From contig NZ_NFJP01000005.1 in NCBI RefSeq assembly GCF_002159915.1, forward strand, positions 1-64,000: a DNA stretch of 64,000 nt, written 5' to 3'. Below the pieces are notes generated by a model that saw only the letters and a program-made list of their open reading frames with translations, was not told the DNA's origin and made no database searches. Source of the stretch: Gordonibacter sp. An230. GTDB taxonomy: Bacteria; Actinomycetota; Coriobacteriia; Coriobacteriales; Eggerthellaceae. Position numbers and translations under genes: made by a program. Below are positions 3,078-64,000 of this stretch, piece by piece. Within the stretch, counting starts at the first letter, position 1. Each line of letters starts with the position of its first letter.

Positions 3078-3182
3078 ATGACAGCCCTCCGCGCCGCGCG
3101 GGCGCCTCCTCCTTTTCGTACCTGTCCATGATAGCCTCTTGCAGCGCGCCGCGAGGTTGGGAATTCGTACGCAGACATGCAT

Positions 3183-3274
3183 GGGTGACGCTGTTTGGCC
3201 GTTTCGGGTGACAAAACCGTTCCGGCGCGGTCCGGTACGGAGGATGTTGGCCCAAAGTTTGTCCGGACGGGTGA
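3183..3274 (+). promoter_or_regulatory. Three GGGTGA repeats in the LuxR/flavoprotein divergent promoter region
   Basis: GGGTGA occurs at 3183-3188, 3206-3211 and 3269-3274. The palindrome GTCCGGAC lies at 3261-3268, next to the third copy. The same hexamer recurs in the other two LuxR/flavoprotein intergenic regions (9164-9169 as TCACCC; 27931-27936 and 27976-27981). These are candidate regulator binding sites by inference only. I do not see a clear -10/-35 pair here. Confidence 0.35.
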
Positions 3275-3370
3275 TGGACGCGCCGAAAACCAGCGGTCAT
3301 CATGGAGGGGCGGAGCCGCCCGGAAGGGTTGCTCCGATCGTCCGAAACCAAGGAGAGAAAGGGGACTCAT

Positions 3371-32086: not shown

Positions 32087-33841
32087 ATGGCAACCTATTG
32101 GGGAAACGGCGGGGTCGTGCGTGATCGTGAGGAGGATTCCTCTCTGAAAGGCAACGCGGCCCAGGGGGATGCGGGCGAGGGGGCGCGGTCGAACGCGCTG
32201 CGCGGAAAGGTCGTGCTTCGGACGAAGCCGTGGGAGCGCGTCGTGTCCATCGTCCTGTCCGTTTTGCTGGTGGCTACGATGAGCGACTTTTCGGGCATCC
32301 AAGGAGCGTTCGCGGCCCAGGGAGGCGCTTCGCAGCCCGCGCCTCAAGCTTCGAGTGCGCCCGAGGCCTTGACGGCGCCCGACGGGGACGCTCCGCAGGA
32401 TTCTGTCGCTTCCGACGAAGGTGACGCTTCCGGCGATGGCGCGTCGGTCGGCGATGGTTCGGCAACGGGTGAAAATGCCGCTTCCGACGAGGGCGGCGCT
32501 TCCGGCGAAGAGGCTCCCTCCGACGATGCGGCGGCATCCGACTCCGATGTCGCCGCCTCCGAAGGTTCCTCCGCCTCTTCGGAGGCTTCGGACGTTGGGG
32601 ACGTCTCGGGCGCTGCGGTCTCTTCGGACGCTTCCGACAGCGAGGCCGTTGAGACTTCCGAGCAGGTCGAGCCTGCTGTCGAACCCGCCATCGAGGCGCC
32701 TGCGGGCCTGGTGCCGGCGTCGCAGGTCGAACCGGCCGCCACCGAGGGCCGCGACGACATCGCGCGCGTGCTCGATCCGCGCGCGACGGTGTTCGGCGCT
32801 CCGCAGACGTCGGAGGGGCGCTACCAGGTGAACGGCACCTCCGTCAACGTGGATGCGACGCTCGGGCAGTTGCGCTCCACAGTGGGAGCCGGGTATCTAG
32901 GCGGTGCCTCCGAAGGTGATCGCGTGACGGTGACGGTGGACGCGCCCTACCTCTATCTCGATGAGAGCGGATCGTTTGCGCGGACGCTCTCGCCTGCGGA
33001 GTGGATGTCCCATGGCGGCGAAGAGCGGGGAATGCGCGCTGCTCTCGTGGCCGATGGAGTTCCCGAGGGCTGGTCTGCCTGGGCTCGATGGAGCGAGGAG
33101 GACGGTTACCAGCGTCTTGACGACGAAGACATGCGCGCGGGGGCGAGCGGCCATGTCGTGTTTCGCTACGAGGGGATCGCGGACACGCCCAGCGCGAACG
33201 GAAGGCTGCGCGCCGATGGAGAGCTCCCCTCCTTCGAGATTCACCTGGCGGGGGATGTGCCGGCAAGCGAAGATGTCGAAGTTCGGGTTGGTTACGACGT
33301 GCGCTCGTTCACATCCGAAGAGGGCGTGACGGAGACGGGCGTGGCGAGCGGCGATTTGACGACGGTGACCGTACGCAACGAGCAGCCGTCCGTGAAGGCC
33401 GATCTTGCCGCGGAACGCCTCTCCGCTCCCGCCGAGGGCTCGCAGGGCGGGTGGCTTTCGTACAAGCTGAAGCTTCGCGTTCCCTCGGGATATCCTGCGG
33501 CAAGCGGCTTGAGCGTCGCGTGGGCCGACGGATACGACCGCTCGGGCGCAAACGCCTCGGATGTCCGGCCGATGCTGTGGGATGTGACGGGGCTTGACGA
33601 CGGAGCCGTTGCGGCCCTCGATCCCGCCGACGAGGAGGCGACCCTACGGGCGGGGGCGAAGCCCCTCGCCGCCGACTGCGACGGACGGTTCGCCTTGAAG
33701 GCCGATGTGGATTCAGCCGAGAGCCTGCCGAACGCCGAGCGCGAGGTCGTGCTCTTGGCGGCGGTTCCCTATTCCGCCCAAGAACATGCGATGGGGGGGG
33801 GTATGAGTTTCCCCATGCGTCTCATGTGCGCTCTTCCCTGA
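32087..33841 (+). CDS. Giant surface adhesin, 5' part (as read, ends at a frameshift)
   Basis: 584 codons. ATG 32087 is chosen for AGGAG nine bases upstream; in-frame ATGs further up lack one. A 50-residue charged cytoplasmic n-region precedes a signal peptide (KPWERVVSIVLSVLLVATMS) with likely cleavage after AFAA near residue 76. Residues of about 80-230 are an acidic Ala/Ser/Asp/Glu/Gly-rich linker. A beta-rich module follows (YQVNGTSVNVDATLGQ, then VTVTVDAPYLY), and a related copy lies beyond the frameshift (VTVDAKLGFTRGYLG, LNVPYLY). The frame leaves the G9 tract at 33793-33801 in the wrong phase and stops at TGA 33839-33841. Adding one G (or removing two) joins it to the open frame from 33802. 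As read, the product would be a short secreted fragment with no visible anchor. Confidence 0.85.
   Translation: MATYWGNGGVVRDREEDSSLKGNAAQGDAGEGARSNALRGKVVLRTKPWERVVSIVLSVLLVATMSDFSGIQGAFAAQGGASQPAPQASSAPEALTAPDGDAPQDSVASDEGDASGDGASVGDGSATGENAASDEGGASGEEAPSDDAAASDSDVAASEGSSASSEASDVGDVSGAAVSSDASDSEAVETSEQVEPAVEPAIEAPAGLVPASQVEPAATEGRDDIARVLDPRATVFGAPQTSEGRYQVNGTSVNVDATLGQLRSTVGAGYLGGASEGDRVTVTVDAPYLYLDESGSFARTLSPAEWMSHGGEERGMRAALVADGVPEGWSAWARWSEEDGYQRLDDEDMRAGASGHVVFRYEGIADTPSANGRLRADGELPSFEIHLAGDVPASEDVEVRVGYDVRSFTSEEGVTETGVASGDLTTVTVRNEQPSVKADLAAERLSAPAEGSQGGWLSYKLKLRVPSGYPAASGLSVAWADGYDRSGANASDVRPMLWDVTGLDDGAVAALDPADEEATLRAGAKPLAADCDGRFALKADVDSAESLPNAEREVVLLAAVPYSAQEHAMGGGMSFPMRLMCALP
33793..33801 (+). 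repeat. G9 homopolymer at the frame break of the giant adhesin
   Basis: Nine G follow AT in the codons around HAMGG. Upstream coding uses the frame of 33791, downstream coding the frame of 33802. G10 or G7 restores continuity. It is a candidate phase-variation tract or a sequencing/assembly error. Confidence 0.75.
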
Positions 33842-36800
33842 GCTTCGGCGAAAAGGGCGCGGCAGGGTCTTTCGAACTGTCGCTGACGGCGGCCGAAAAG
33901 GACATTCCCTTCGATGTTGATAGAACCGCTGCCGATGGTGGAGCCGACCGAGGCGACGAGGAGGGGTTGTCGGATTCCATCGAGACGACGGACGAGGAAT
34001 CGGAGAGCGTGTTGGAGCAGGGGCCGGGCGCGCTCGACGGAATCGCCTCCACGTTGGCCGATTCGGCTGCGGAGGGCCTACTGTGGGCGCCCGGCTTGGC
34101 CAGCGGCCTTCCAGCCAACTATTTCTCGCCGTTTTTGAACGTATCGGGCGCGACCGATATGGGCGGCGGACAGTACATGGTCAAACAGGGCGACCTTCCC
34201 ACCGTCACGGTGGACGCCAAGCTCGGGTTCACCCGGGGCTATCTGGGCAACGTTCAGTTCCGTCTGAACGTGCCGTACCTGTACCAAACCTCCACGGGCG
34301 CCATCCAAAGCGCTTACACAAAGGAGGAATGGGAGGCCGGCAAGCAGGAGGCTCCCGAGGCCAACGCCGACAACAAGCGCATCTCTCTCTCCATCGCCGA
34401 TCCGGATACGTTCTTCATGTACTGGGATCTCCTCGATTCCGAAGGCGGCAAGATCACGAAGGAGGATTACGTCGCTTCCGCTTCGGACGGGCTGACGGGA
34501 TCGTACACGCTCGTGTATCGCGGCCCCGATGGCAAAGGGCACTTCAACCAGTCGTTCCAGCGGCCTTCGTTTGCGCTGAGCTTCGTCGGCTCCATTCCTG
34601 AAAACGGCGGCGGCTTGGTCACGCTGGGCGCAACGGCGCAGAACTACTACGACGAAGACGGCTCTTTGAGCCTCGAGGGCACCATCAACATTTCCGATGG
34701 GCAAACAGACCAGGTGAGGGCGGCTTTCATCAAAACCAATCTCGATTGGGATCCGGACGTGGAGCTCGTGCATACGCCGGTGCTGTGGGATCGGTACAAC
34801 TATGCGGTGTACAAGGTCACGCTGACCAACACCTCTCCCTCCGACGACAGCAAGATCGACCGATTCAGGCATTACTTCAAGTTCACCAACGTGGTGAACG
34901 ACGAGTACGGCATGCGCCCCGAGGATCTGATGGCTTGGCGCGTGGAGTCCGACGGAAGCGTGGTGGCGAACGACAACACCGACGTCACCGCCAACCTGAC
35001 GTTGGTGGGCGTGCCGGGCGAAGGCGGAGCCCTCATCTACGACACGAGCGACTGGGACGAGAGCACCTACGAGCAACTGGACATGGACACGTTCTCCAAT
35101 ATCGAAGAGCTGGGGGGCGGTCCGGCCCTCACGTACAGGACGGGAGGCATGAACGGCCAGATAGAGTTCTCCACTTCCGATGAGGACGGCGGCCTGGTGT
35201 CGAACGAGGGGGAGACGCAGGGGCATAAGGACCACACCACGCTGTTGGTGGCGCTGCCGTATACGACCAACATCGGGTACACGACCTCCTCGGATGGCGG
35301 CAAGGAGTACGATCGTGCCGAGTTCAACGTGGAATCCACCGTGTACTTCGGCAACATGGGCGAGAACGATTACGCATGGGGCAAGTCGTCGAGCACGTCC
35401 AACGGGTTCATCGAGGCGGTGTCCGGCTTCTCGCTGGATAAGTGGGCCATTGATCGCAGCGACGGCACCCAGAAAGAGACGCTTAAGAAGGAAGGGCGCG
35501 ATCGGCTAGGGTACCTGAGCGGATACGTGATCAACAACATGAGGTCCACGGGGAACGTGCCCGTGTTCGGAACGCGGAGCGACGGAGGGCCGTTCGGTCA
35601 GGACGATCCGTTCGAAGAGGGCCAAGAGAGCTACACGGAGGAGCGTCATGCCGGGGCTGCGTTGGTGGATGCCCTTCCCGATGACTGGGAGTTCGGAAAC
35701 GTCGAGATAACCCTGCCGGATGTCGAGGTTTCGGACGATGGCGCTGACGCTCCCGACGATCCTGAAGCGCAGGGCGCGCAGCTATCGGACTGCTACCATG
35801 TGGGTGAATCGGGCAGTCCGCTGCAATTCGAGGTGCAAAGCGCCGAGGGCGCAACGCGTTGGGTGGACGTGCCGCTTTCTGCAGAAGAGCTGCGCGACGA
35901 TGAGGCGCAAACGGTCACATGGCGATTCGGCGGAACGACGCGCGAGGACTCGCTCGCGGCCGCACTGAGGAGCGCTGGTTACGCTGCGAAGGGCGAGGCG
36001 GCCGATGGCGAAGAGGCGTTCACCGGTCGTTTCCGTGTTCTGTTCAAGGAAATCCTTCCCGCAAACAGCGAAGTTCCCGGGTCCATCCAAATCAACGGGT
36101 ACATGAAGTCTCCGGGAACGGAGGCGAGTCCGCAGGAGTACCCCAACTCTGCCCGCGTGGAGTTCTCTCAGCGGATGTGGGTGACCGGATCGGCAACGGG
36201 GGGCGGGTCGGTCGAATCGACATATCAATTCCGCAACGAGGCGAGCGAGCGTGCGGAAGCGAAGCTTCTGCCGCTGGTGCCGGTGGCCCCCGTGGTGGAC
36301 GCCAAGGCGTACGGCGATGCCAGTAGGGCGGCCGACCCCAACGCCACGCTTCAAGACAGTGCGTCGGTGCCCGTCAGCTTGGAGGCAGCGGGGTGGCGGT
36401 TCTCGTTCGGCAACGACAGCAGATCCATGGTGGAGCCGGCTCGGATCGTTGTCGGCCCGGTGCCGAAAAAGGAGGTGGCGGACGGGACGCACGAAGGGTA
36501 CACGCGCTACGAGGGCTTCAAGGCTTCGAGCGTGTCGCTTTCCCGCGACCTTGTGGAGGAGTTCGGCTCGCTGAGCTCGGTCGAGGTGTCCTATTATGTC
36601 AGCCTTGACGATCCGGAACTGCCGTCCGACCCAGAGCAGGCGAAGGAGCCCAAGCGGGTGAGCGTGGGCCTTGACGAGCTGCGATCCTATTACAACAAGG
36701 ACGTCGATGCCTACGTGCTTCCGAGCTCCGTGTGGCGCGATGGTTACGTGGACCGTGTCATGATCGGGTTCGATTACGTGCACGGCAACATGCCCGCTTC

Positions 36801-39800
36801 CGAGGCGAACGCGTTCGTCGACGTCTTCGGAGCGGGAACGGTGTCCGACACGTACAGCATGTCTGCGACGTTCTCCTCTGCGTATGCCGATCCTTCGTGG
36901 GACGTGTCCCGAAGCGATTCTGCTTCGCTGGACGTGTTCCCGGTGGACCCCCAGCTATCGGCCGTGGCGTACACGGCGGCAACGGGCCCGGGCGACCCCG
37001 AGCCGGATGCGTCCAGCAAGGTGTCGGCACCGCTCGGCCGCCAGCAAAGCGGCTGGCGCTTCACCGTGTGGAACGCGAGCGCGGCCGTGATGGAGCCGGC
37101 GGCCATCCGCGTGGGCGCCGTCCCCCGCGACACCGACGGCAGCAAGCCGCGCGGGTTCGAGGCGTCCCATGTCACGTTGTCAGCCGCGCTCCTTGCTGCG
37201 GGAGAGGTGCAGTCGCTGATCGTGCGGTCCTACGATGGAGATGCCGAGGAAGCGCAGGAGCACGAGCTGTCGGCAGAGACGGTGCGGTCGCACATCGACC
37301 AGTCGTCGGGGAATGCGGTGATCCCGGCCTCCGCATGGGGCGGCGGCTACCTGAGCGAGGTCGAGGTGATCTTCGCCTCCTTTGCCGGCAACGCCCCCGA
37401 AGGAGGGGAGAGCGGCAAGGCGTTCGTCGACGTGTTCGGCACCCCGACGCTTGTGGGAGAGCTGTCCCTCGAAGGTGTGTTCGAGACGCGCTACGACGAT
37501 CCCAGCTGGGACAAGCGCGACAAGGGTAGCGCCGTCATCGATGTGACGACGATCGACCCCGCAGTGTCCCTTTCGCATGGGTGGAACGACGGAGCGGAGG
37601 ATCGCGTCAACGAGGCGATTCCGTATCGATGGGGCGATGGGAAAGGCGAGGATGCCTGGATCGAGGCGAATCTGACGAACGAGACCGAGTCGACGGCCGA
37701 CGCCGTGAACTTCGACCTCTGGGTCGATGGGACGTCGAGCGATGGGCCGGTCGGACACGCACGCGGGTTTCTTCCCGTGGGGGCGGAGGCTGTCGGCTTC
37801 CAGAACGAGCAGGGCGAGGACGCCTCGGGCGATGACGTGCTGTGCGCGGTGGACGGGACGGCGGGAACTCAGGCCCTGCGGCACCGGTCGGGCGCCATCG
37901 CCGGTATCGACCTGTACCGGTTCGACCAGCTGCCTTCAGATGACTCAGCGGTTTTGCCGGTGAGGAGCTACGACGCGGAGGACCTGGCGCAGTGGGTGTC
38001 GGAGGGTTCGCTGCGCATACCGGCGAGCGAGTTTCCTGCCGACACGCCCGTTTCATTCGTGCGCGTGAGGTACGCGCGTCTCGGCGCGCAGGCGGCGTTC
38101 GCCCTGCGGCTGTATGGGCGTGCGGACACGCATGGCGAGCCCGCTGGCTCCCAGACGTTCTCCAACGGCGTGACGGCCCATACCCGCTTCTTCCCCACCA
38201 CGGACGACTACGGCGAGGGCATCGAGCGCACGGCTGATCGGCGGGTGAGCATCGGCCAGATCTCCATGGTTTCGGGGGCATCGGCGTTCAAGCCGCAGGA
38301 CGTGCGTCCCGTGTCCGGCGCGACGGAGGGCGCAAGCGTGGAGGTTGCGGCGCATGCACGCGAAGTGGGGTATCGCTTCTCGCTGAAAAACGGCAGCTAC
38401 GCCCGCTCGGACGAGGCGGTGGTGTCGCTTGATGTGCAGGGCATCGCGCGGCGCACTTCGGAAGAGGACCTGTCCGTACGGGGCTTTCTGACCGATACGG
38501 TGAAGATCGGCGCGGACGTGTTGTCGCTGGGCACATGCAGCGCCGCGTACGGGACTCCCGCCGAAGGCGAATCCGACCGCTCCGCCTTCGTCAAGGCGAC
38601 GTTGACCTTCCTCGATCCCACGACGGGCGAGCCGATGCCCGATACCTTCGAGCTTGACGAGGCGGCGGTGCGGGAGGCCTTGGGAAGCGGCGAATCCTTC
38701 ACGCTGACGGTGGGCGAAGGGGAGCTGTCGGCCTACGAGGGGTGCTACCTGTCAAAGATTGAGCTGAGCTACGACGAGATCGATCCGCTGACTGCCGGAG
38801 CTGACCTGGGCATCGAGCTGACGGGCCGCGCCGAGTGGTACGACGCGCTCACGGCGAAGCAGACGTTTGTGCAGACGGGTGCGCTCGACACGCGCAACAC
38901 GAACGAGGCCCAGGCGACGCTGCGGGTGGAGCGCCCCGCCGCCGAGGTGCACTCGTACGTGCAGTACGCGGAGAGCGATTCGACGGAGTACACCGATAGC
39001 GATTCCTGGGCCTCCGATGGCAACCGGCAATCGGCGGCCGTGCCCTACGACCGCGACTTCACGATGTGGGCTACCATCGAAAACGAGCGGTCGGTGTCGG
39101 TGCTCGACGACCTCGACGTGTCCATCAAGCTCCCCCTTTCCTGGGAGACGGGCATTAAGCAGGCCGACGGCACCACGTTGGACGCGTGGACGGGCTTTCA
39201 CGCCACGAGCTTCGAGGTGGCGGCTTCCCTGCTGAAGTGCTTCCCGAACGGGGAGGTGGGCGTCATCGAGGTGGCAGGCTACGCTCCGGACGCGCAGGGG
39301 GCAGATGCCTCGCTCGTGGAAAAGGCGCTGCATCCCGTCGCGTCCGATCCGTCCGGCAAGGGGGACGGCGGCGCAGTCGATGCCCCGCTCAATGGGGATC
39401 AAGTGGTCGGGTTCGTCGACGAGGCGGGGCGGTTCTACCCAATCGTGAATGGCGTGATCGTGGTGAGCGAGGATGCGCTGCGCGCTCTGGGCATCGAGAA
39501 CCTCGTCTCCATCGAGCTGGCGTCGTGGAAGAACATGCAAGAGGACGCGGTGGCTGCCGCAGATCAGGTCATCACCGTGCATGGCTACGAGGACGCGAAC
39601 TTCGGCTCGACGGGCACGTTCGAGGTGCGCACCGTCAACCACCTCGGCGGGTTCCGCACAGGCGATCAGGCGGCCAGCTACGAGGTGGTGCGTCAGGACC
39701 GCTCGCATGCGTACGTGAGCAAGATGTACTTCGACGCCGTGAGCCGGATGGGGTACAAAGACGGCGAGACGCCCAATCGTCTGACCAATCATACGAACGG

Positions 39801-42800
39801 CTCGCAGGATTCGGGGCATGCCGCAGGCCGGTACTATGGCGAGACGAACGGCGCGCTCAACATCGGATACAAGGCGCAAGGGTCGTTCCTTGCGGACTTC
39901 CGCCAGGTGAGCAACGTGTCGGGACCCGAGTACACCTGCAATCTGCTCACGAGCCACAGGTGCAACGAGCAGAGTTCGATCAAGGGGGTGGGCGCGCTCA
40001 GCTACAACACGGGCCTCACGCTCACGCTGACCCAGAACCTGCCTTCGGGCGTCTTCGACGCCTACTACGTGCGCATCCGCCAGGCGGCGCTTCCCTTCAT
40101 AGAAAGCGTTGTCGTGACCTACGAGGACGGCTCGACCCTGACCGTTCCGAAAGAGGAGCTCCTTGCGCAAGGTGAGAGCGGCGCCCTGTCCGCCGAGACG
40201 GGGACTGACGGCAAGCCCTACTTCCGCCTGAACCTTCTGCGCCTCGATAGCGAGGGAGGCCACGAGGCCGACTTCGGGACGGCGAGCGGGGATGCGTATT
40301 CATATCGCGATCCTTTCGCCGACTACGCCGACGAGGTCATGCCGTCGGAAAATCGCCTGGTGAAGAGCGTGGCGTACACGGTGCGCATCAACCAAAACCA
40401 ATATGATGGCTCGGAGAACCATCCGGGCGACGGGCGCGGGGAGAAGGCGAAGGCGCCCGACTACGGCACGTGGTTCGGCGACAATCTGGCCTACAGCGAC
40501 GAGGCGTGGACGAACCTCATGGCGTTCGAGGTGACGGGCCGGTTCTACCGGGCGGCGGACGACGTGACGGCGACGACCGAGGTGACGGTGAACGCGGGCG
40601 GCGATTACTCGGGCAACGAGCGCGCGGGCCACAAGGCCGTCACGCGCTACGACGACGGTTCCTCCACGGGCGATCACCGGGGGTTGTGGTCGTACCAGGA
40701 TAGGACGTTCGAGTACAACAGCTATTATAGCCACTACCATCATGACGGCCGCATGCGCCACCTGCGTACCGACCAGCGCTTCTCGGTCATAGACGACGAG
40801 AACTACGTGCGCAAGGGCGTGAACGACTCCCTGGCCTTCAGCCTCGACACCGACACGTCCGTCAGGTTCGCCGACGATGTAAAGTTCCGCGTGTCGTTCT
40901 ATCGCCAGCATAAGACCTTACCCTTCGGCTCGTACGACTATGCGGCGGGCGACGACTGGGGTGGGAGCCGCGTCTCGTTCGCCGACCGCGTGGTGCTGAC
41001 CGATCGCTTCCCCGTTTGCTTCCCGAACGACGATTTGGGGTACTACGGCTTTTTGAGCACGGGGGTGCAGATCCCCGCCGACTCGGAGGTGCTAGGGAAG
41101 CTGAAGCAACAGCGAGACGACCATCGCGGCGGCATCGCGCCGAGCGTGACGCTGTCCACGAAGACGTGGGTGCGCGACGACGCGGGGGCAGCAGACGGCG
41201 ATGCGGCATCGGGGGCGTACCGCGAGGACGAGGCCGCTGCCCGCACCATCGCGGTGCGGGAGGACGGCACCTTCCTCATCAAGGGCGATGGGCAGGAAGA
41301 GCGCCTCTCCGAGGCGGACATCGATGACCTTCTGGCCGCCACGGGCGAGGACGGCGCCGTGTACGTGCAGTTCCGGCGTCCCGGCGAGGAGCCCGCCGCC
41401 GAGATACGCGCCATGATTGATGCGGGGCGCACGCCGTTCGTCATCGACCTTGGCGAGAACGAGTTCGTAAGCGAGCTGTCCATCGAGCTGGGCGCGTTCG
41501 CGGGCGATGCCGACGGCACGGGCGAGACCTCCCCGCGCTACGACGGCGAGCGCTCCGACGATGCCACGACCATCGATCTGTATGTGCTGGGCCGACCTTA
41601 TGTGTACAGCAACCAGACCAACCCGTCCACAGGCGCCCAGACGGCCGTCCAAGACGCGACGAACACCGTTGAGGCGTTCAGCTTCCTGAACCAGGACGAC
41701 CAGACACTCATCGCATCGCCGCTTTGGGGGGAGAACGCCTCGCAGGATCCGGCGGCGTTCTTGGGGTATCTGATCCCCTTCCGGTACAACTACAGCCTGC
41801 AGGCGGAAGGGAACGAATCCGGCATACCGACCGTGCGCGATTACACGGACGACAACAACACGCCGAACACGGCGACCTACGAAGCGCGATTCTGGAACAT
41901 CGAGGACGTCAACCCGGGCAAAGAGGACGCGCAGCGGGCATCTCATATCAATCATGTCACGTTGAGCAGTGCCGTTAACGACAGCCTGCGTGTGCAGAAG
42001 CTCTTCATCCCGCAGAAGCTCGTGCCGGGTGGCGAGGGATATGATGACGACTGGATGCGCGTGGAGTCCGTGCGCTTCACGGCCAACGGCAAGACGGTCG
42101 CGCTGTCGTGGCAGCAGGCGGTGGATGCGGGCATCGTCTCCGAGGCGGCCAACAGCAACGGCGACTTCGAGGTGGACATCGAGGCGTATCTGCGCCGCGA
42201 CCTGAAAGCCGAGCTGGACGGTTCCGACGAGACCGAGTCGCTGGGCTTGGTGGGCCGGTATCGAGCCACGGGCGCAACCAATTCCATCGGGGGCTTCGCA
42301 GGCGATGACAGCGTGGACATCGAGTACGCGAAGCCGCATGTCAGCATGTTGGAGGTCACCTACGACTCCCCGAACGCCGACCGCAGTCGCCCCGAGACCA
42401 TGCTCGATTCCGGCCAGTATCTCGCCAACGAGGCCGGAGGGTACGCGTTCGCCTACGAAGGGGTGTTCGCCGATCGTCCGCTCGAGGCGTTCGCGAACGC
42501 CTCGACGACGGGGACGAGCGTCGAGGCCGGATGGGACGGCCTGTCCACGCCGTCGTTCGGCAAACAGGTGACGTCGAGCAGCACGTATGGCGCCGAAGCG
42601 CAAGCCTCAGACACGATGGCGGTGTCGAACGTGCAGACGAAGGATCCGAACCATAGCGTCTTGAAACCGAATAGCGAGGACCGGGTGGCGGCCTACCGTG
42701 CGAACCACATCCTCGGCCAGCTGGAAACCAGCATGGCGCGCGGCACGAAGGTGCAGGCGGCTCCCGACGCCGAGCTTCGCGACCTGTTCGCCTACGACCG

Positions 42801-51800: not shown

Positions 51801-54800
51801 GAACACCATGTTCACGATGGGCAACTCCAACGTGAACGGCCCTGTGGCCGTGCCGGAGGGAACCAGCTACACGTATCTGGATTCCGTGGACAACGTGGGC
51901 ACGAGCGAATCGGCGGCCCAGGGTGCGGTGCGCACGGTCATCTACGATGTCCTCCCCCATGAGGGGGACAAGACGGCCACCAACCCGGGCGACGGCGACG
52001 GCGAGCCCCGCGACTCCCGTTGGAACGGCTGGCTGGAGGATTTGGATTCCGTGGTGATGACGCGTGCGGTTCCCGATGGCGAGACCGGCGCGCGGAAGGA
52101 TCAGGTCCTCAACGATGACGAGTGCAGCATCTGGGTGGGCCCCATCAAGACGGAGGGCGGAACGCTGATCCCCCAGACCGAGGACGCCCTGCCCAAGCTC
52201 TATCAGATGGGCGAGGCCGATCAGCTGAAACTCATGAACGAGCTGTACTACGACGTGCGCGACAACGGCGGCTCGAAGATGGCGTCGTATTCGTTCGTGA
52301 GCCTCGACGCGCTGAAGGAGTACTGTGCGGAGCACCCCGAGGAGGCGGACAAGCTCAAGAAATCCGTGCGCGCCATCTGGGCGCAGGTGATGAACGACGA
52401 TCTGTTCGTGCACACTTTGGGCACCATTCGTCTCAGCTACGATCTTCGCGCGCCTTTGAACCTGCCCAAATACTTGGGCAACCTGTCGGGCGACTCCCAG
52501 TGGGATTCCGATGTCGAGAACAACCCCGAGCGTGCCGGCCAGCTGGCCGACGTGTCGCAGAAGAACACGTTCGCTCAGCGCGTGAACAAGGGCACGGGGG
52601 CCACGGCTGACGACGAGGCGGTCATCCGCGAGAACTCTTCGGCGGGCGCGTTCGTGGACGCTCCGTCCGGGAGGGGCTACATCGGCGACTACGTGTGGCT
52701 CGATCCCGACTGGAACTGCTTGCAAGACGATACGGAAGGCGCCGTGACGCAGGACGGACTAGGGCGCGACACCACGTACCATCGCGCTTCGAACGGCCGC
52801 TGGCTGCTGTCCACCGGAAAGGCCATCGATCCGGAGACGGGTCTGTGGACGGGGACGTACGGCGACGGTGCCGCGACGAGCGACCTGTTCCGCGACCTTG
52901 ACTACGACGGCAAGCCCGACGATCCCGGCGTGAACGGCGTGAAGGTGGAGCTGCTCAACGAGTTCGGCCTGCCGGTCAACCGCGATGGGGAGGTTTCCCA
53001 GCTGGTGAACGATCCCAACCTGACGGACGGGGAGGATCGCTGGGTGGTGTGCGATCCCGAGACGGGCGAGCCGGTGAAGAACGCTCAAGGAGGCTACGAC
53101 CTGGCGGAGGCCGGCGCTCCGTACTCGTACGTGACCGAGTCGGACTACTATGACAACCAGGGGTACTATATCCTGTCGAACCTCGTGCCGGGCTCCTACA
53201 AGCTCCGCTTCACCTTCCCGAAGGAATACGCGGGCTATTCGCTGAGCACGCATCAGATCGGACCGGACGATGCTCGCGTGTCGATGGACGTGCGGCATGT
53301 GGTCGACGACCCGTCGACGCCGGAGGATGAGACGGCTCTGGTGGCAACCACGCGCGACGCCATCGAGGTGGAGGCAGTGGCCTACGACGAGGAGGCGCTT
53401 GCAGCCGGGCGCTTCGACGAGGTGCACGCTGCTTACGACGCGCGCATGACCAGCTACGACGTAGGCATCGCCCTGCCGGTCACCTATGAGGGCGTGGTGT
53501 ATCGGGACGATATGCTGGCCGACGGGACGCTCGAGGACGAGGACGCCATCGACGGCGTGCTCGACTACCATGGCACGGACATCGATGCGCAGCTGGGCTC
53601 CGGCACGGCGGCGTCCGAGAGACGCTTGGCCGGTATGACCGTGACCGCTCGCGACTACGATCCCGAGACGGGGGCGGTGTCGGAGGAGCCGGCCGTCGAC
53701 GCGGACGGGAATCCCGCCGTGCAGGTGACGGGCCAAGAGGGACCTCAGGGCGAAGGATCGTTCTCGTTCCGTCTGCGCACGGGGCGTTCATATGTGCTGA
53801 CCTGCGAGGATGAAGGAGGCACTCTGCTTTTGAAGCCCACGCTGTACGTGCGCAGCAACGACCCGCTCGAATATCCGACATCCGAGGGCGGCGTGTGGGA
53901 CAACGACCTTCAGCTGAAAGACGGTCGCGGCATCACGCGCGCATTCGAGGCGAAGGTGCCGTTGGACGAAGACGGGCATGCCGTGTACGAGCAGCCTGGC
54001 GAAGCGTGGACGGGGCTCGCGCGCTATCGCAAGATAGCGATGGGGTGGATAGACGGAACGAAAGGCTATCTGGGCAACTTCGTGTGGCACGACGAGGACT
54101 ACGATGGCGTGCAGGATATGGACGAGCCGGGCATTCCAGACGTGGAGGTGACGCTGGAGCAGTACTGGTGGAACCCCGGCAAAGAGGGCGGTGCTGGCTG
54201 GGAGCGCGTGCTCGACGCCGAGGGCGTGCCAGTGGAGCGCACGGAAACGACGAGCGCGTCGGGGTTGTACCTATTCAAGAACGTGCCCACCTACGTGGCC
54301 GATCCGAACGACGCGGACGACCCCGACAAGCCCGAGGAGCAGAAGCAGAAGTTCTTGGCCGGTTACCGATTGAAGGTGGACGAGGGAGCCGTAACCTCTC
54401 TTGATCGCAACTGGGGCGTGACGCTGCGCAACTACGCCGCTTCCGGCGCTGTCGACGAGGAAGCCGACTCCGACTTGGCCACGTCGAGCGCGTCGACGTC
54501 GGGCACCCCCGTCTTCTGGATGAACGAGGAGGGCTTGCAAAGCGATGACGACCTCGCGTTCGGCCAGATGATCGTCTTGGCCACGCCGATGGACGACGGG
54601 ACGGCGGACGGAAGCGGCGTGGTGGCCGTGGAGCCGCCTGGCGAACAGGCGCGTCGCTACGATCTGAGCAACGCCCAGCGCATCGAGTCGTGGGACGCGG
54701 GGCTAGTCGAAGTGCCCACGGCGCGCGTGACTGGCCGCGTGTGGAACGATGCCGACTATGACGGCCTGCAGAAGCTCGATGAGACGGGGGCGTACCATCC

Positions 54801-57800
54801 CGACGAGCCGGGGCTCGAAGGGCAGCTGGTGGAGCTGACCCAGTGGTACTACGACGAAGGGCGCGAGAACCCCGACGATGGCGACAGCCACTGGTTCCGC
54901 AACGAACGGTTCGGCGAGGATCGCTGGACGAAGGGCATCGTGTCGAACGGCACGGCGTCGCAGGGCGTCGTGTCGGTTGCGACGGATGCGGACGGCGTGT
55001 ACGCGTTCGACAACCTTCCGACGGCCTATACCGACGACGACGGCGGGCATCGCTTGGCAGCGTACCGCGTGCGGCTTGCGGCGCTCGAGACCGACGACGA
55101 CGGCACGCCGTGGTTGCTCACGCGCTACCATCAGGGAACCGACGACGAGACCAGGCTGCTCGACTCCGACGCGGCGACGCCGGGCGAGGACATGGCGGTG
55201 ACCGACCGCTACGCCTCTGGCTCCGCGGGCACGGACGAGGGGACGCGCTCCCATGCGGGGCAGATCATCTTGGCCGGTCCGTCCGATGATCGCGTGGTGG
55301 AGGGGCAGGCAAGCCAGGTGTCCGTGACGGCCGGCGACGCTCCCGACGGGACGGCCGCCGTGTACGACTGGCTGCGTTGCGCGGCCGACGAGGACGGCGA
55401 GGTTCCCGGCGGCGACGTGGGCGAGCTGTCCGCGCCGCGTCCGAGCGTGTCGGGCTTCGTGTGGGTGGATGCCGACAACGACGGTGTGCGCGATGCCGAG
55501 GAGACGGAAGACGCGCTCGATGCGGGCGCGAGCGACCTTCCCAACGGCGTGCAGGTGACGCTTGAGCGCTACGTGCCCGATGGGGCGGGCGGCTGGACGC
55601 GCGACGCCTCGTGGGCGAGCGAGGACGCGTGGCGCGCCTACGACGAGGATCCGACGCGGGGCCTTCCCGAGCATAATGCGGTCACGGCCACGCAGTCGCC
55701 GGTGCCGGCCGCTTCGCAGGAGCCGGGCGCGGGCGAAGGCGGCGAGGATGCCGCCCAGCCCGGCGTGTTCCGCTTCGACGGCCTGGCGGCATCCGCCTAC
55801 GACGCCGAGGAGCGGTCGTACGTGCCCTACGCCTACCGCGTGCGCGTGACCGATGCGCGCTACCTCGGCCGCGACATCCTCATGGCGAAGTACCGGCGCG
55901 GCGACGACCGCCGGGTCGATTCCGACGTGCGCTTCGAAGACGGATACCTGATGGATCTGGGCGAGGACGGCCAGTCCCGTCCGGAATACGACGTGCTGCT
56001 GGACGTGGCCGACGAGCAGTCGCTCGCCGCGAACACGATGGGCGACCAGCCCGTTTCGGGCAATCCGAACTACGAGTGGGCGAACCCCGGCACGGCGGGC
56101 GCGCCGACGCTCTCCTACGACGCCGCGAAGGCGTCGGATCGCGCCTCGAACGATGCCGGCATCATCGTGCCGCCGACGCAGACCGTCTCCGGTCGCCTGT
56201 GGAAAGACGCCGACAACGACGGCCTGATGGACGAGGGCGAGGAGGGCCTCGGCGGCAAGAAGGTCGTGCTTAGGCAGTGGGTTTTGGACGACGAGGGCGC
56301 ATGGGTCCGGGTCGAGAGCGGCGAGCGGGAGTGCACGACGGCCGCCTCCGACGAGGGCGGCGTGCGGACGGGCGCGTTCTCGTTCGAGGGCCTTCCCACG
56401 TACGTGGGCGGCGAGGAGGGCGGGGTGCGCCTCGCAGGCTACACGCTGGAGGTGGCGGGCGCTGGGGCCGACGGCATCGGCTCCGAACCGCGTGCGCGCC
56501 TTCTGGCCGAAAGCCCCGCTCGCGACGGCTCCAACTCCACGCTGCGCGGGCCTGACGACGCAGCGGCCTCCGAAGGCTCGGCATACGGAGCGGGAAGCTA
56601 TCCGCTTCGCTGGAGCGAGGAGAGCAGCCAGGCGAACGGCGAGGACGGCCTGGTGCGCAGCGTGCTGAAGGGCCGCCTGGTGCTGGCCGCGCGCGCGGAC
56701 GGCGACACCTCGGCCGAGTACCGGGTGGATGCCGACGGCCTTGCGTTCGACGTGTCCGCAGGCCAGGACGAGAGCCGCATGAACGGCGGCGTGGTGCCCG
56801 ACGCCCTGGGCCGCATCGAGGGCACGGTGTGGGACGACGCCGACTACGACGGCGTGCGGGCCTTCGAGGGTGCGGATGCGGTCGACGAGCCGTTGGCGAG
56901 GCAGCGCGTGCATCTGACGCAGTGGTACCGCGAAGGCGACGAGTGGGTGCAGAACACGGGCTTCGGCCCGGGCGAGGCGGGTGCCCCCGAGGGGAGCGTC
57001 ACGGTCTCGACGGACGACGAGGGCGCTTACGTCTTCGACGGGCTGACCTCCTATGTGCAGATGGACGGCTCGGGTCGACCCGTGTCGCGTTACGGCCAGG
57101 GCCGCGTGGACAACGCCGCCGACGACTTCCGCCTGGCGGCGTACCGCGCGAGCGTCTCTTTGCCCGACGGCACGGAGGCCACGCTGTACCATGCCGGGGA
57201 CGACCGCGCCTTCGACTCGGACCTCGTGAGGCCGGACGGGGACGCGGCGGGCGAGCTGCGAGAGACGTTCGACGACGGCGAAGGGGCCTTCGACCATGCA
57301 CGCGAGGACGGCTACGTGGTGTTGGCGCAGGTGCAAGCGGCGAACGGCTCCTCGGGCGCTCCTCAGTACGGAAGCGAGTTCAACGGCGTGGCCTACGACG
57401 CGCTGGCTGGCCGGGAGCGGCAGCGCGGCGGCGACGCGGGCGTGTTCGCGCCGCGCTCAGCCGCCCTGTCGGGCACGATATGGAACGATGCGGACAAAGA
57501 CGGCATCCAGGACGGCCCGGAAGCCGAGCCCGGCATCGCCGACGTGGAGGTCACGCTCGAGCGCTGGTACTGGGATCCCGCCGGCGACGGCGCATGGAAG
57601 CCCGTTTCGGACGGCGGCGCCGAGGGCCGCAGCGGCGCTGCGGAGGCCTCGACGACGACAGACGGATCGGGGGCCTACCGCTTCGACGTGCCGACGAAGG
57701 TCTCCGTTGACGGCGTCGATTATCTGGCGGGATACAAGGTGCGCATCGACCAAGACGCGCTTCGGGCGCTGTTCGCCCAGGCTGAAGGCGATGGGAAGCA

Positions 57801-60800
57801 CGCGTGGGCTCCCACGCACCGCCGCGCGGGCGAAGACGCCGCGCTCGATTCCGACGTGGCGCGGACGTCGGAGCCGGTGGAGGGCTCCTCTGCGGCGGGC
57901 AACGCCTGGTACCTGACCGATCCGGGCGCGGACGGGGAGTTCGCCATCGTGGCTCGTCCCGCAGAGGCGGGGTCGCAGCATGTCGTGGACGGCCCCGACG
58001 ACGCCCGCTACGATTACCTGAACGGCTTCGAGGACGACACGTGGGACGGCGGCCTGGTGGCCGTGCCGTCGGCGGGCCTCGAGGGCGCGGTGTGGGCCGA
58101 CGCCGACTACGACGGCCTGCGGGCGGACGGTGAGGCCGGCGTGGCCGGCCGGCGCGTGCTGGTGGAGCAGTTCGTCCTGCGCGACGGGGCGTGGCGGCGC
58201 AACGGGGCCTTCGGGACCGCGTCCGACCCGTTCACCTCGGGCGCCGTGGCCGACGCCTCGGGCGCGCCCGCCGAGGAGGGCGGCCCGGGCGAGGAGGGCT
58301 TCCTCGCCGTGCGCACCGGGGCCGACGGGCGCTACGCGTTCCGCGGGCTGCCCACGGCGTGGACGGACCCGCAGACGGGCGCGGCCTACCTCGCCTCCTA
58401 TCGCGTGCATGCGGAGGGGCTCGGCGACGACGAGCTCCTCACGCGCTACCATGCGGGTGGCGCGGATGACGCGGGCGCGATCCTCATCGACTCCGACGCG
58501 GACGCCGCGGACGCGTCCGGGCGCTATCCGCTGCACGATCTGCGCGTGGGGCGGGACGGCTCGGTGGGCCTGCGCCCCGACGACCGCATCGTGCTGGCTG
58601 CGCCTGTATCGTCCGATGCGTCCGGGTTGCTTTTGGGCGCGTCCGATCCGGCTGACGGCGACGCGGCCTACGACGGGCTGACGGCCGTTGCCGACAGCGT
58701 GGCCTCGGGAGATGTCGGCGTGGTGGCGCCTCCTGCGGCCGAGGTGTCGGGCACGCTGTGGTGGGATGCCGACCACGATGGGCTCTACGATGCCGAGAAC
58801 GAGGCGGTGCTTCCCGGTCGCACGGTGCTTCTTCGGGCCTGGCGCCTGGACGACGCGGGCGCATGGGTTCGCGTCGAAGGGGGAGACCAAACCGCCGAGA
58901 CGGGCGCGGATGGCCGCTTCGCCTTCGAGGCCCCCGCTTCGATCATGGCCGATGGCGGGCGGAGCTTGGCCGGCTACACGCTCGAGGTCGACGGCACCGC
59001 GTTTTACGAGGCTGGCTCGAAGGGCGTGGGCGGGCTGCCGGTGACGGCGCTGCAGGCCTTCTCGCCCGATGCCGACGACGCGAACTCGAAGGTGCGCAGG
59101 CCCGGCGACGAGGGGGTTGTGGCTCCTCAGGTCGAGGGCGCCTACGCCTTGGCATGGGACGCGTCCGCGTCCGAAGCTGACGATGCGTCCCGTCGCGTGC
59201 TGGGCGGCCGCATCGTGGTGGCCCTGCCTCAGGAGGAGGGCATGAGTCCCGACTACGCGCAGGCGGGCTACAACATGGCCTTCTCGGCGGACGAGGATCG
59301 CATGAACGGCGGCTTCGTTCCGGCTGAAACGGGCTCTGTCGAAGGCTTGGTGTGGAAGGACGTGAACTACGACGGCGTCCAGCAGCTCGATGGGGACGAC
59401 CCCGAGCCGGGGATTTCCGGTCGCTGGGTGTACGTGACGCAGTGGTATTTGGGCGACGATGGATCCTGGGTGCAGAACGAATCGTTCGGGCAGGCTGCCG
59501 GCAATGAGGGCTTCGACGCCGACGGGGGCCAGCCGCAGCACAGCCAGAAGGTCCAAACCGACGAGGGCGGCCGGTATCGTGTCGAGGGGCTGGCTCCGTA
59601 CGTGCAGCTGCGCGACGGGGCGCCCGTGGCGCCTGGCTCGCCAGGAGACGACGACTTCCGTTTGGCGGCGTACCGCGTGAGCGTGCAGGGTCCGGCTGAC
59701 GACGAGGTGGTCACGCGCTTCCATGCCGGCGATGATTGGCGCGCCGACTCGGATGCGGTGGTGGCCGCCGACGGCGAGCCGCTGCCGTTGTACCCGCACT
59801 ACGAAGGGGTCGACGAGGGCGGCGCGCTGCAGGCCGAGGGCATGGTGGTCGTGGCCCATCGCGTGTCCGCAGGCGATGCCGAGGCGCCATACGCCGTGGA
59901 GCGTGGCGGCGTCTCCTACGACCCGGTGCGAGCCGAAGAGGGGGGCGTGGAAGGCGGGGATGCCGGTTTCACGCCGAAGGCCCTCACTGCTATCAGTGGG
60001 CATATTTGGGTGGATGCAGATCGCAATGGCGCACGCGATGCCGACGAGGCCGGCGTGGCCGATGTGGAGGTTGTGCTCGAGCGTTGGTATTGGATGCCCG
60101 ATGGCGACGGCGGGCAAGGAGAGTGGATCCCGTATGCCGTCGATCCCGTCGATACGGCGATGACACGCGGGGACGGCTGGTATCTGTTCCGCGATCTGCC
60201 GACTACGTTCGAGGTGGGCGGAACGGAGCGCCTTGCAGGCTACCGGGTGCGCGTTGACGGTGCGGCCCTCGGGGGCCTTCCGGTCGCTTACGGTGTGACG
60301 GCGCGCCATGCTGCGGGCGATCCGAACGATCCCTCGAAAGACTCCGATTTGGCAGAGCTCGTGGGGTCGGCCCTTCCGGGCGCGCCCGAGGCCGAAGGGG
60401 GCACGCGCTACTTCACCGACGAGGGCGATCTGCCCGACACGGACGGCTTCGTCGTGGTCGCAAGCCGTTTGGAAGACGGCGTCTCGAGCCAGTACGAGAC
60501 GATGGGGCCCGACGGCATCCGCTATGACGCGGCGGCCGGCGTGCGCGCCGATCATTTGGACGGCGGCCTGGTGGCCGTGCCGTCGGCGGGCCTCGAGGGC
60601 GCGGTGTGGGCCGACGCCGACTACGACGGCCTGCGGGCGGACGGTGAGGCCGGCGTGGCCGGCCGGCGCGTGCTGGTGGAGCAGTTCGTCCTGCGCGACG
60701 GGGCGTGGCGGCGCAACGGGGCCTTCGGGACCGCGTCCGACCCGTTCACCTCGGGCGCCGTGGCCGACGCCTCGGGCGCGCCCGCCGAGGAGGGCGGCCC

Positions 60801-63800
60801 GGGCGAGGAGGGCTTCCTCGCCGTGCGCACCGGGGCCGACGGGCGCTACGCGTTCCGCGGGCTGCCCACGGCGTGGACGGACCCGCAGACCTCCCGCTCT
60901 TACCTTGCGGCGTATCGCGTGTGGGTGGAGGGCGTCTCGGAGGGCTCCGTGCCCACGCGCTACCATGCCTCCGATGCCGACGACCCGTCGTTCGACACCA
61001 CCCGCATCGACTCCGATGCGGATGCGGCCGACGAGGCGGGACGCTTCCCGCTGCACGATCGCGAGGCGTTCACGGCCGGTGATGCGGGCGCGGGCCTGCG
61101 CCCCGACGACCGCATCGTGCTGGCCGACGAGGTTGCCGAAGACGCAGGCGGGCAGGCCGACCCGGCCACGGGCCGCGCCTACGACCTGCTGGCGTACGGG
61201 GCGCAGAGCATGCCGGGCGGCGACATGGGTGAAACGCCCGTGGAGCCCGCCTCCCTCTCGGGCGTGGTGTGGGACGACGCCGACGGGGATGGCGTGCAGG
61301 ACGAGCGCTCCCCGCTGCCCGGTGTGACCCAAGGCTTCGATGCCGCCGCGGGCATAGACGGCGTGGAGGTGGAGCTCACGCGCTACGTGCCGGGTCTCGA
61401 CGAGGACGGCGCGCCGTGCTGGCTTCCCGACGAGGCGTTTGAGCCCGTCCGGACGACCACGGCCGAGGGTGTTGACGACTTCGGCCGCATGTCGCACGGC
61501 GTGTACCGTTTCGACGGGCTCGAGACGTGGGGCGCAGGCGAGGCGGGGTCTCCCGTCGTGTACGCCTATCGCGTGGCGCTGGCCGATGCGGAAGCGGTGA
61601 AGGCATCGTGGCTCGTGTCGGTCCCCCGCATCGGCGACGATGCAGCGTTCGATTCCGACCTGTTCCAGGACGGGCTTTTGGCCGAGGAGGCTTCCCAGGA
61701 GCATTACGTGCTGCTGCGCGAGGCCGATCCCGACACGCCCGCCGCCAACGTGGCGACGGCGCCGTCCGCGCGCGCCGAGGGCGGCGACGGCCTTGCGGAA
61801 GTGCGCTACGACGTGGCTCAGCCTCGTTCGCAGGGGCATGTCGACGCCGGCCTCATGGCTCCGCCGGAAAGCGCCATCGCCGGCACGCTGTGGGTTGACG
61901 CCGACTACGACGGTTTGATGAGCGCCGGAGAGCGGATGCTTGCGGGCAAGGAGGTATCGCTGACCTCGTGGCTTTTGGTGGACGGATCATGGACGCAGGG
62001 GGCGGTCGAAACGCGCCTGACGGGCGACGACGGCCGGTTCCTGTTCGACGGCCTTCCCTCTTCGCGCCTTGACGACGAGGGGGTTCGCCGCCTGGCGGGC
62101 TACACGCTTTCAGTGGACGGCTCGTCGACGCCCCAGGGCGTGGGCGGGCTGCCGGTGACGGCGCTGCAGGTCGACTCGCCCGACGCCGACGACGCGAACT
62201 CGAAGGCGCGCAGGCCCGGCGACGAAGGGGCGGTGGCGCCTCAAAAGCAGGGCGATTTCGCCTTGGCGTGGGCCGAGCGTGACGCCGCCACGTCCGAGCG
62301 CTCGCTTTTGGACGGCCGCATCGTCTTGGCGCGCCCGGCGGCGTCCGGCGACCAGACGGTGAACGGGGCGTACGTGTTCGCGGGCTTCGATGCCGCGCGC
62401 GGCAGAAGCGAGCTTCGCATGAACGGCGGCTTCGGGCCGTTCCCGACGGGCGCCCTCGAGGGCGTGGTGTGGGACGACGAGGACTACGATGGCGCGCAGA
62501 ACCTGGAGGCCCCGGGCGAGGAGGGGCTGGAGAGCGGCGTGCCCGGCCAGGTGGTGCGCGTAACGCAGTGGTACCGCGAGGGCGGCGAGTGGGTGCAGAA
62601 CCTCGCGTTCGGCGACGAGGGCCAGGGCGCTTCGCTGGCCGCGACCACCGACGACGGGGGACGGTACCGCTTCGAGGGGCTCCCCTCGTACGTGCAGATG
62701 AAGGACGGGGCTCCGGTCGAGGCGGACGGCGTCGGCGACGACGACTTCCGCTTGGCCGCGTACCGCGTGTCCTTGGAGGGCGTGCCCGAGGGGTACGTGG
62801 CGACGCGCTACCATGTGGGCGACGACCCCGCCGTCGACTCCGACTTGCTCGTGGACGAGGCGAATCGTTCGCTCAACGTGGTGGAGCGCTACGCCGACGG
62901 CGAGACCGAGACGCTGCGAGGAGACGGGTTCGCCGTGCTTGCGTCGCCGGTGGACGAGGGGTTCGACTCCCAGTACCGGGACGTTTTCGCGGGCGTGGAG
63001 TACGATGTCGTGCGCAGCGTGGCGGCCCAACGCGGAGGCGACGCGGGCTTCACGTCGCCGCGCCTCGCGTCCATCGGCGGCCGGGCGTGGATCGATGCCG
63101 ACGGCAACGGCGCGCAGGACGAAGGCGAGGCGGGGCTCGCCGGCGTGCAGGTGCGGCTCGTGCGCTATCGGTACGAGCCGAGCGAGGACGGAGCCGTGCG
63201 CTGGGTGCTCGACCGGGCGTTCGGCGGCGGCGCGGCCGCGCGCACGGCCACGACGGCCGAGGACGGCTCGTATTTGTTCTCGGATCTGCCGGCCGTCGCG
63301 TGGACGGCGGCAGACGGTGCGGTTTCCAACGCGGTGTACGGCTACCGGGTGTCCGTCGAAGGGTTCCCGCACGGCTTCGACGTGGCGCCGCGCGATGCCG
63401 CTGACGCCTCGGTCGACTCCGATTTGGACGAGGTGACGGGCCGTTTGGCTCCCGACGCGGCAATCGAGGGCCTCATCGTCCTTGCCGACGAAGCGGACGG
63501 GGCGGATCCCGCCGACCTCCAGACGGGGCCGGGAGGCCGTGCGTACTCGCCGGCGCTCTCGCACGATTGCGTCAATGCGGATGCAGGCTTCGTTCCGCAT
63601 GGCACGACCGAGATCGAGGGTCGCGCGTGGGACGATGGCAACCGCAACGGCGTGCAGGACGCAGGCGAGCAGCTGCTCGTCGGCTTGGAGGTGCGCTTGG
63701 AGCGCATGGAGGTGCCTGCAGACGAGCTGCCCGAAGGCTTCGGCGCCGTGCGCGTCGAAGACGCCGCCGACGTGCTTGACGAGGCGGGCGACCCTGTCGA

Positions 63801-64000
63801 GGGCGATGTCGCGGAAGACTCTTCTGCCGACGAGCGCGGCGCTTCCGGGAACGAGTCGCCTTCCGGAGGGGAGGGGGCTCCGTCGGAGAGCGGATGGGAG
63901 GAGGTCGCCGTCGCCTGGTCGGGCGAGGACGGCTCGTACGCGTTCTCGGATCTGCCGGTGAGCTCGGATGCGGGTGTTCCGTACCGCTACCGGCTTCGCG
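33802..64000 (+). CDS. Giant surface adhesin, remainder (partial, runs off the right edge)
   Basis: An uninterrupted frame of 30.2 kb (10,066 codons) with no stop before the window ends. With the 5' part the protein exceeds 10,600 residues. It continues the upstream protein in sense (YEFPHASHVRSSLSF) and shows high third-position GC throughout. From 34100 to about 52600 it consists of beta-rich extracellular modules, many Tyr/Asp/Gly-rich, including related ~220-residue modules at 36289-36951, 36952-37560 and, diverged, 38254-38940. From about 52680 it becomes an array of SdrD-B-like domains, each opening with a W-x-D-x-D-x-D-G motif that should bind calcium. No anchor is seen; an LPXTG-type sorting signal would be expected beyond 64000. 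The likely role is adhesion or a surface stalk; the ligand is unknown. No transporter or sortase is encoded nearby. Confidence 0.85.
36289..37560 (+). repeat. Tandem duplication of a ~210-residue adhesin module
   Basis: Copy 1 (36289-36951) and copy 2 (36952-37560) share ordered anchors: GWRFSFGN/GWRFTVWN, VEPARIVVGPVP/MEPAAIRVGAVP, PSSVWRDGYVDRVMIGF/PASAWGGGYLSEVEVIF, AFVDVFG/AFVDVFG and ADPSWDVSRSDSASLDV/DDPSWDKRDKGSAVIDV. A more diverged third copy lies at 38254-38940 (VGYRFSLKN, CYLSKIELSY, ALDTRNTNEAQATLRV). The family is not recognised. Confidence 0.65.
58044..58376 (+). repeat. 333-bp identical repeat, copy 1
   Basis: I read no difference between 58044-58376 and 60558-60890. It covers the first half of a repeat unit (AGLEGAVWADADYDGLRADG onward). 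Offset 2514 bp, exactly 838 codons. Confidence 0.85.
60558..60890 (+). repeat. 333-bp identical repeat, copy 2
   Basis: Identical to 58044-58376. The sequences diverge abruptly on both sides (downstream ACGGGCGCGG in copy 1 versus ACCTCCCGCT in copy 2), as expected after gene conversion or recent duplication. Confidence 0.85.

Follow-up and report, generated by a model that had tools for sequence, protein, structure and literature searches.

Very long genes for surface proteins have been described in the Eggerthellaceae. Adlercreutzia equolifaciens DSM 19450T carries AEQU_0093 (74,766 nt) and AEQU_1251 (74,247 nt); their products have a C-terminal LPXTG motif, and Toh et al. (2013; PMC3778203) suggested that they are surface proteins located outside the cell. 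Smaller homologs of 37,689 and 61,890 bp are given for subspecies celatus in the available part of another report (PMC8142583). The gene analyzed here, which lies in a 64,000-nt stretch of DNA (the window) and runs past its edge, is likewise a giant Eggerthellaceae gene with a C-terminal LPXTG motif, although it is shorter, the codons 5′ and 3′ of its G9 tract totalling about 10,765. It is a member of this published kind, sharing a core, in order, with 12 other complete genes and its conserved domain with the A. equolifaciens genes of L125 and G060. No tract was reported for the AEQU giants (PMC3778203) and three A. equolifaciens genes in our set have no counted run of nine or more G; the link to poly-G tracts described below is apparently new.

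The Staphylococcus MSCRAMM proteins SdrC and SdrD resemble the window protein in their SdrD_B stalk repeats, sortase anchor (predicted here) and, as far as a model indicates, a possibly adhesin-like N-terminal β-sandwich. The window protein is far longer, no counterpart of its core was found, and the whole-protein model for MSCRAMM SdrD (NCBIfam NF012181) scores 29.4 bits on slice 61399-63999 against a cut-off of 2500. The adhesin of Mobiluncus mulieris, with 7,651 residues and 51 Ig-like repeat domains in the accessible portion of its description (PMC10619420), is also a giant actinobacterial cell-surface protein. In contrast to its Ig-like array, as far as that portion describes it, the middle of the window protein has no internal repeats detectable by profile comparison of slices.

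Slipped-strand mispairing shifts the length of a tract at replication and toggles the reading frame. In Gardnerella, for which part of one report describes such changes of homopolymer length and frame, surface-protein genes, some with LPXTG motifs, lie beside homopolymers of at least 8, and one tract had 9 or 10 bases among colonies (PMC11287997). Both there and here, actinobacterial surface-protein genes are accompanied by homopolymers. The Gardnerella loci belong to another class and encode other proteins, no giant being reported in the part available, and the colony variation is that of Gardnerella, whereas the present tracts are known from assemblies. In prokaryotes, poly-A and poly-T are enriched at 5′ ends and poly-C and poly-G are generally under-represented (PMC2831843); fibrillar adhesins have been predicted at large scale (PMC9210967), and a preprint deals with inversions in Eggerthella lenta, each of these sources being cited for its available part. 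A literature search of partial coverage returned no report of tracts in the Eggerthellaceae giants.

Extent of the giant frame

The window consists of the first 64,000 bases of a 170,890-bp contig in a genome of 3.88 Mb and 73 contigs. The giant frame, ORF B (+ strand; 33802-64000 within the window), had been described in an earlier note as open from 33802 to the window edge. It is stop-free from 33598 and, when read past the edge, ends at a stop codon at 64384-64386, 386 nt outside the window on the same contig, so that it comprises 10,262 codons from stop to stop; the first start codon in the ORF list is at 33826. The protein-like composition and high GC3 noted earlier were borne out by a GC content of 0.847 at third codon positions and by a ln P of about −250 for 10,186 stop-free codons under a model of independent bases with local composition, and a chance origin is therefore excluded.

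The stop and anchor, which the earlier note had asked to be sought beyond the window, were both found. The C-terminus of ORF B consists of LPTTG (codons 64276-64290, beyond the window edge), a hydrophobic segment and a basic tail (LPTTG...RFRGKAARRG), the arrangement expected of sortase-anchored proteins, and the 3′ end of the gene is thus complete. It is followed by genes that we take, by eye from the sequence, to be infA, rpmJ, rpsM, rpsK, rpsD and rpoA.

Frame break at a G9 tract

The exporting 5′ part, ORF A (32087-33841, + strand, frame 2; 584 codons and a TGA), was delimited from the ORF list and its match to a congener. Its start is ATG 32006 or ATG 32087, the latter with a likely ribosome-binding site (AGGAG, 32073-32077, +), and its stop is TGA 33839-33841. 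The putative signal peptide region (32216-32314, +; LRTKPWERVVSIVLSVLLVATM...GAFA), read by eye from the translation, codes for a basic and then a hydrophobic stretch in the frame of ORF A and not in that of the giant; signal peptides of this type are, also by eye, common to the family's proteins of 10-13 thousand residues. No signal peptide of its own was seen in the translation of frame B. The claim of a very large surface protein, here one of the Eggerthellaceae, with SdrD-B-like repeats and a putative signal peptide is supported, with an LPxTG anchor in addition. The earlier note had also described a single gene of more than 10,600 residues, to whose frame the exporting part adds about 570 codons. 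The giant frame is real, but ORF A is in frame 2 and the giant in frame 1, a break that the note did not report. Since the two are in different frames in the assembly, translation from the exporting start would yield neither the giant nor any one product exceeding 10,600 residues.

Frames A and B overlap across 33598-33841 and meet at a G9 tract at 33793-33801 (+), which lies 37 nt before TGA 33839-33841 and is the sole homopolymer of at least 7 in the gene. As at contingency loci, a long homopolymer is thus found within the coding region. In the congener Candidatus Rubneribacter avistercoris (G002, DXCU01000047.1), the ortholog is one frame of 10,597 residues. One match, with 54.5% identity over 10,356 columns, aligns it collinearly with ORF B, and the start of the ortholog's frame is 52% identical to ORF A. 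The ortholog aligns with frame A as far as AMGGG; about 25 residues further, near AGSFE, the alignment resumes in frame B. The congener has G9 at the same codon site, in frame there, with a flanking phase that differs from the window's; by ortholog comparison, two tracts of nine G are therefore found out of frame in one gene and in frame in the other. A paralog in the window's own genome is a single frame of 9,921 residues and, like the congener's gene, holds the exporting and giant parts in one frame. This paralog and four other relatives lack the triple glycine at the corresponding position, and it is therefore not a conserved protein motif. Identities between ORF B and the congener at the three codon positions are.702,.735 and.509 (9,598 codons), with the third position lowest in all 11 of 11 blocks, which shows purifying selection along the giant frame, also past the break. 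No match was obtained in G001, the remaining genome of this three-genome genus.

Domain organization

The conserved N-terminal domain (34240-35682, +) was modeled from alignment A1 with a pLDDT of 81, and residues 166-394 adopt an adhesin-like β-sandwich in the model. Its fold neighbors include UafA, FnBPA, ClfA, ClfB, SdrG and SdrD, with Z-scores of 8.5-9.5 over about 125-150 residues in one part of the model; the similarity is middling, and the fold is equally near to non-adhesins, such as a cohesin-like module (Z 9.9) and integrin domains (Z 9.7). The best Foldseek match is the C-terminal domain of SspB (E 2.8e-6, TM-score 0.21), and a search of the PDB with the A1 sequence profile gave a single irrelevant match (E 0.09).

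This domain is followed by diverged repeated modules of about 200 residues each (36259-39591, +; ORF B residues 820-1930), recognized by profile comparison of slices, and by the middle of the core (39592-52887, +), whose order is conserved in 12 relatives. The earlier note could not assign some 18 kb in the middle to a known family, and the searches agree: Pfam searches with five slices covering 33802-51798 gave no family at cut-off and one sub-threshold MIR match, and NCBIfam gave none above cut-off for the middle of the core. A match to the NCBIfam MiiA motif is weak (17.4 bits, cut-off 24), and a search of the literature on this motif found nothing relevant. A core model (44410-46782 with 11 relatives, alignment A2) has a mean pLDDT of 41.7, too low to inform on the fold, and the A2 sequence profile had no match in the PDB.

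The stalk (52888-64000, +) carries 17 SdrD_B-like repeats as counted with a repeat HMM, the last ending at about 64179 beyond the window; the assignment comes from Pfam PF17210 (E 1.9e-21), and the repeat motif has 12 copies at the DNA level. A candidate sortase (PF04203) elsewhere in the genome, at C23:37378-37887, is marginal, with 25.9 bits, or 26.7 with its neighbors, against a cut-off of 26.6, and a second PF04203 match is below cut-off.

Family of giant genes

Searches with 34240-35682 matched 19 of 138 genomes of the family, in 6 of 48 genera, mostly in frames of 9,590 to 34,927 residues; ORF A matched 6 of 60 relatives. Core alignment A2 was searched against 296 genomes sampled from the class, representing 125 genera; the 14 genomes and 5 genera with a match all belong to the window's family. 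We take the shorter frames (G006:C237, G006:C73, G067, G114 and G135) to be cut by contig ends. In one gene (G064:C1), the frame is cut where it changes for a second time, at 10 consecutive N in the assembled sequence.

Full-length reading yielded 13 complete genes, including the window's. The 12 others match most slices of the window's core of about 6,300-6,600 residues and, except for the repeated modules, keep their order. In the longest complete genes (five or six, with 22,527 residues and more), the core contains insertions and the stalk has 30-39 repeats, compared with 9-17 repeats in the shorter genes. The anchors of the 13 are LPxTG in six, LPQTS in three, LPKLG or LPTLG in two and FPKLG in two. 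The longest fully read gene with an in-frame signal peptide encodes 30,639 residues on one contig (G160). Larger bacterial proteins occur in Chlorobium and Omnitrophota. Giants are also present in Parvibacter caecicola DSM 22242 (13,016 and 26,643 residues), in A. caecimuris B7 (12,742 and 24,922) and in A. equolifaciens (12,867 in L125; frames of 20,475 and 24,860 in G060), the last matching the window's conserved domain. The genome G159 has frames of 30,463, 34,927 and 22,174 codons, about 9% of its approximately 2.8 Mb; for the 34,927-residue frame, the signal peptide lies in another frame. These giants are a heavy cellular investment, and a known function was not found for them.

Poly-G tracts at gene starts

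Sense-strand runs of at least nine G were counted in the 43 genes with a 5′ end in hand, after L121 and L122 had been dropped as duplicates; named loci duplicating unnamed ones were not added, and the fragments G006:C237 and G006:C73 were excluded at contig ends. The reference point was moved by hand to the frame of the start or signal peptide for the window gene, G159:C39, G135 and G064:C1; before this move, the two 500-nt bins flanking the frame opening held 8 and 9 runs. For L117 and L132, which have no genome rate, 25 runs per 2.5 Mb were assumed.

Between −500 and +2000, 18 runs are present in 16 of the 43 genes, against 0.71 expected from the genomes' own rates. Seven lie in −500..0, seven in 0..500, none in 500..1000, two in 1000..1500 and two in 1500..2000; none follow in 2000..4000, and two more are found upstream in −2000..−1000. 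Runs of at least nine C are absent from the sense strand in every bin counted from −2000 to 4000. Within 500 nt of the frame opening, such G runs occur in 12 of 43 giant genes versus 1 of 172 neighboring ORF starts (ORFs called mechanically; C runs in 3 of 172). Fisher's P for this contrast, 1.1e-8, exaggerates the significance, since orthologs do not count as independent observations, and the test came after the clustering had been noticed. In one P55 gene (G006:C261), G10 at −443 and G8 at +33 were not counted since the −500 bin left the contig and the latter is under the threshold. A genome-wide excess of poly-G was rejected as an explanation: the window's own genome (G000) has 158 runs of at least nine on its two strands, and the rates still predict 0.71 against 18.

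The 16 genes come from 13 of the 20 genomes and represent all six genera with giants; some belong to the cultured strains A. caecimuris B7, A. mucosicola DSM 19490, Enterorhabdus sp. P55 and A. faecimuris JBNU-10. About 13 distinct tract sites were recognized by eye, before the frame, just past the start codon, or past the first domain. The association of giant genes with sense-strand poly-G tracts is thus recurrent and well supported. It is also patchy: no run of this length was counted in 27 of the 43 genes. These include the paralog from the window's genome, the three genes of A. equolifaciens, and the genes of G100, G158, G160 and A. agrestimuris. They also include the four genes of Parvibacter type in G019 and G113; G114, a member of that genus, has a tract. 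The bodies of the 13 complete genes (708 kb) contain one C8 and no run of eight or more G versus 2.2 expected from codon shuffling, which does not establish an avoidance of G runs.

Tracts separate the start or signal peptide from the giant's frame in the window gene (G9), G159:C39 (G13), G135 (G10) and G064:C1 (G12); in the last of these, the tract and the few bases around it are the only place where the frames could be joined. They are in frame in G002 (G9), G114 (G10), A. mucosicola L118 (G9), L128 (G9) and A. faecimuris (G9). The phase is ambiguous in L120 (G11) and G064:C7 (G10), where a tract-adjacent ATG competes with an upstream start in another frame. Tracts ahead of the frame are found at the same place in A. 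caecimuris (G12), G062 (G9), L137 (G9) and G067 (G11), at G006:C272 of P55 (G9), and in another A. faecimuris gene (G10); the corresponding position of its P55 ortholog holds G8. Lengths therefore differ among orthologs (9, 9, 11 and 12 in one set; 10 and 8 in another).

Proposed switch and alternative explanations

We consider it likely that the window gene encodes a giant sortase-anchored fibrillar protein, most likely an adhesin, and that its expression most likely switches as the G tract gains or loses bases by slipped-strand mispairing. The protein would comprise a signal peptide, N-terminal adhesin-like β-sandwiches, a core of about 6,300 residues, a 17-repeat stalk and an LPTTG anchor; the head-stalk-anchor plan and the N-terminal fold neighbors are consistent with an adhesive role, and export and anchoring are predicted from the two termini. 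The switch would lie between the first and second N-terminal domains. The G9 state as assembled would be OFF, with translation stopping at TGA 33839-33841 after an exported, unanchored fragment of at most 584 residues, and tract lengths of the other phase would join the frames to give the anchored giant of about 10,765 codons, the ON state. Random on/off switching, presumably within a population, is suggested by the clustering of G tracts at the 5′ ends of many giant genes. Points against this reading are the patchy distribution of the tracts, the G9 common to the nearly identical G062 and L137, the marginal sortase match and the middling fold similarity.

An error of sequencing, assembly or consensus at the homopolymer, with the gene intact in cells and the tract without a regulatory role, is in line with a congener that is in frame at the same site and a downstream giant frame that is wholly stop-free, and a G9 in a 73-contig assembly is a homopolymer of the kind concerned. 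Such an error leaves unexplained both the clustering of G, and not C, tracts at 5′ ends in six genera and the differing tract lengths of orthologs, and we regard it as unlikely. Programmed ribosomal or transcriptional slippage on the G run, by which one sequence would yield both the anchored giant and a short exported fragment, agrees with two frames that overlap around the run one base apart. It is nevertheless a very improbable explanation, as a single frame spans the G9 at this site in the congener, the tracts occupy different positions in different members of the family, and several are upstream of the frame.

We assign a similarly slim chance to recent pseudogene formation in this strain. 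The assembled sequence does leave the exporting start out of frame, but 10,262 stop-free codons, purifying selection along the whole frame, and a break on a hypermutable type of sequence that is common to the relatives all speak against decay. A very recent loss and an OFF phase look alike in sequence. Two separate genes, ORF A for a small exported protein and ORF B for a giant with its own start, would account for the open frame that each forms as assembled; given that both parts share one frame in the congener and in the own-genome paralog and that frame B has no signal peptide, this possibility is close to negligible.

Returning to a slipped-strand switch, we lean slightly towards extending it to the family: giants of about 10,000 to 35,000 residues would be under poly-G phase variation in all six genera, the switches having arisen repeatedly, at about 13 sites, and the proteins would be among the largest phase-variable ones known. 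In genes with the tract past the first domain, such as the window's, cells in the OFF state would make no fiber and would release a soluble N-terminal domain. If the giants are phase-variable, cells of a clonal gut population would differ in their longest surface structure, which would bear on contact with the host, recognition by the immune system and attachment of phages, and annotation would label OFF alleles as broken genes. Sequencing a short amplicon across the tract would cheaply report the ON/OFF state in any sample, and function therefore becomes testable.

Relatives outside the class and in IMG/VR

Outside the class, the conserved domain is found in Beduini massiliensis, Faecalibacillus faecis and an uncultured Ruminococcus, in frames of more than 3,800 residues that run off the locus; these three loci contain no G or C run of at least eight. 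A phage origin was rejected, the conserved domain being without a match in phages. Scanning IMG/VR for further tract variants turned up nothing new. A relative is present on one IMG/VR contig (L137), which matches G062 at 98.75% identity over 8,013 nt and at 86% over 974 nt more and is therefore taken to be bacterial; the two have the same tract length, G9.

Exact stalk duplicate and putative signal-peptide types of the giant proteins

The stalk, the part of the giant frame that carries the SdrD_B-like repeats, contains two identical 300-nt copies (58044-58343 and 60558-60857) spaced 2,514 nt apart, suggesting that stalk units have recently undergone gene conversion or duplication. At the other end of the gene, the putative signal peptide (32216-32314) and those encoded at the 5' ends of the related giant genes fall, as judged by eye, into two conserved types: ...TKPWVRxLSVxLSxLLAxTMFD in proteins of 10-13 thousand residues, and APRQ...LAVxLSxLLxLTxWN...EA in proteins of 18-35 thousand residues.

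Homopolymer runs and neighbouring genes

A G10 run (10595-10604) is a second candidate contingency tract. It lies in frame inside an ORF (9314-11092) with a LuxR-type HTH at its C-terminal end (GerE, E 1.4e-14). Other long runs in the window are C13T9 (25-46), C9 (22043-22051), C10T9 (25728-25746) and G10 (30054-30063), with T9 immediately 3' of the C run in both C13T9 and C10T9. The assembly of another contig of the same genome (G000:C4) contains at least 71 consecutive G, beginning at 118631, which is perhaps an artefact. Between 1341 and 28141, several FAD_binding_2 reductases lie next to LuxR-type regulators and to a histidine kinase accompanied by a response regulator; a Cpn60 gene is also present.
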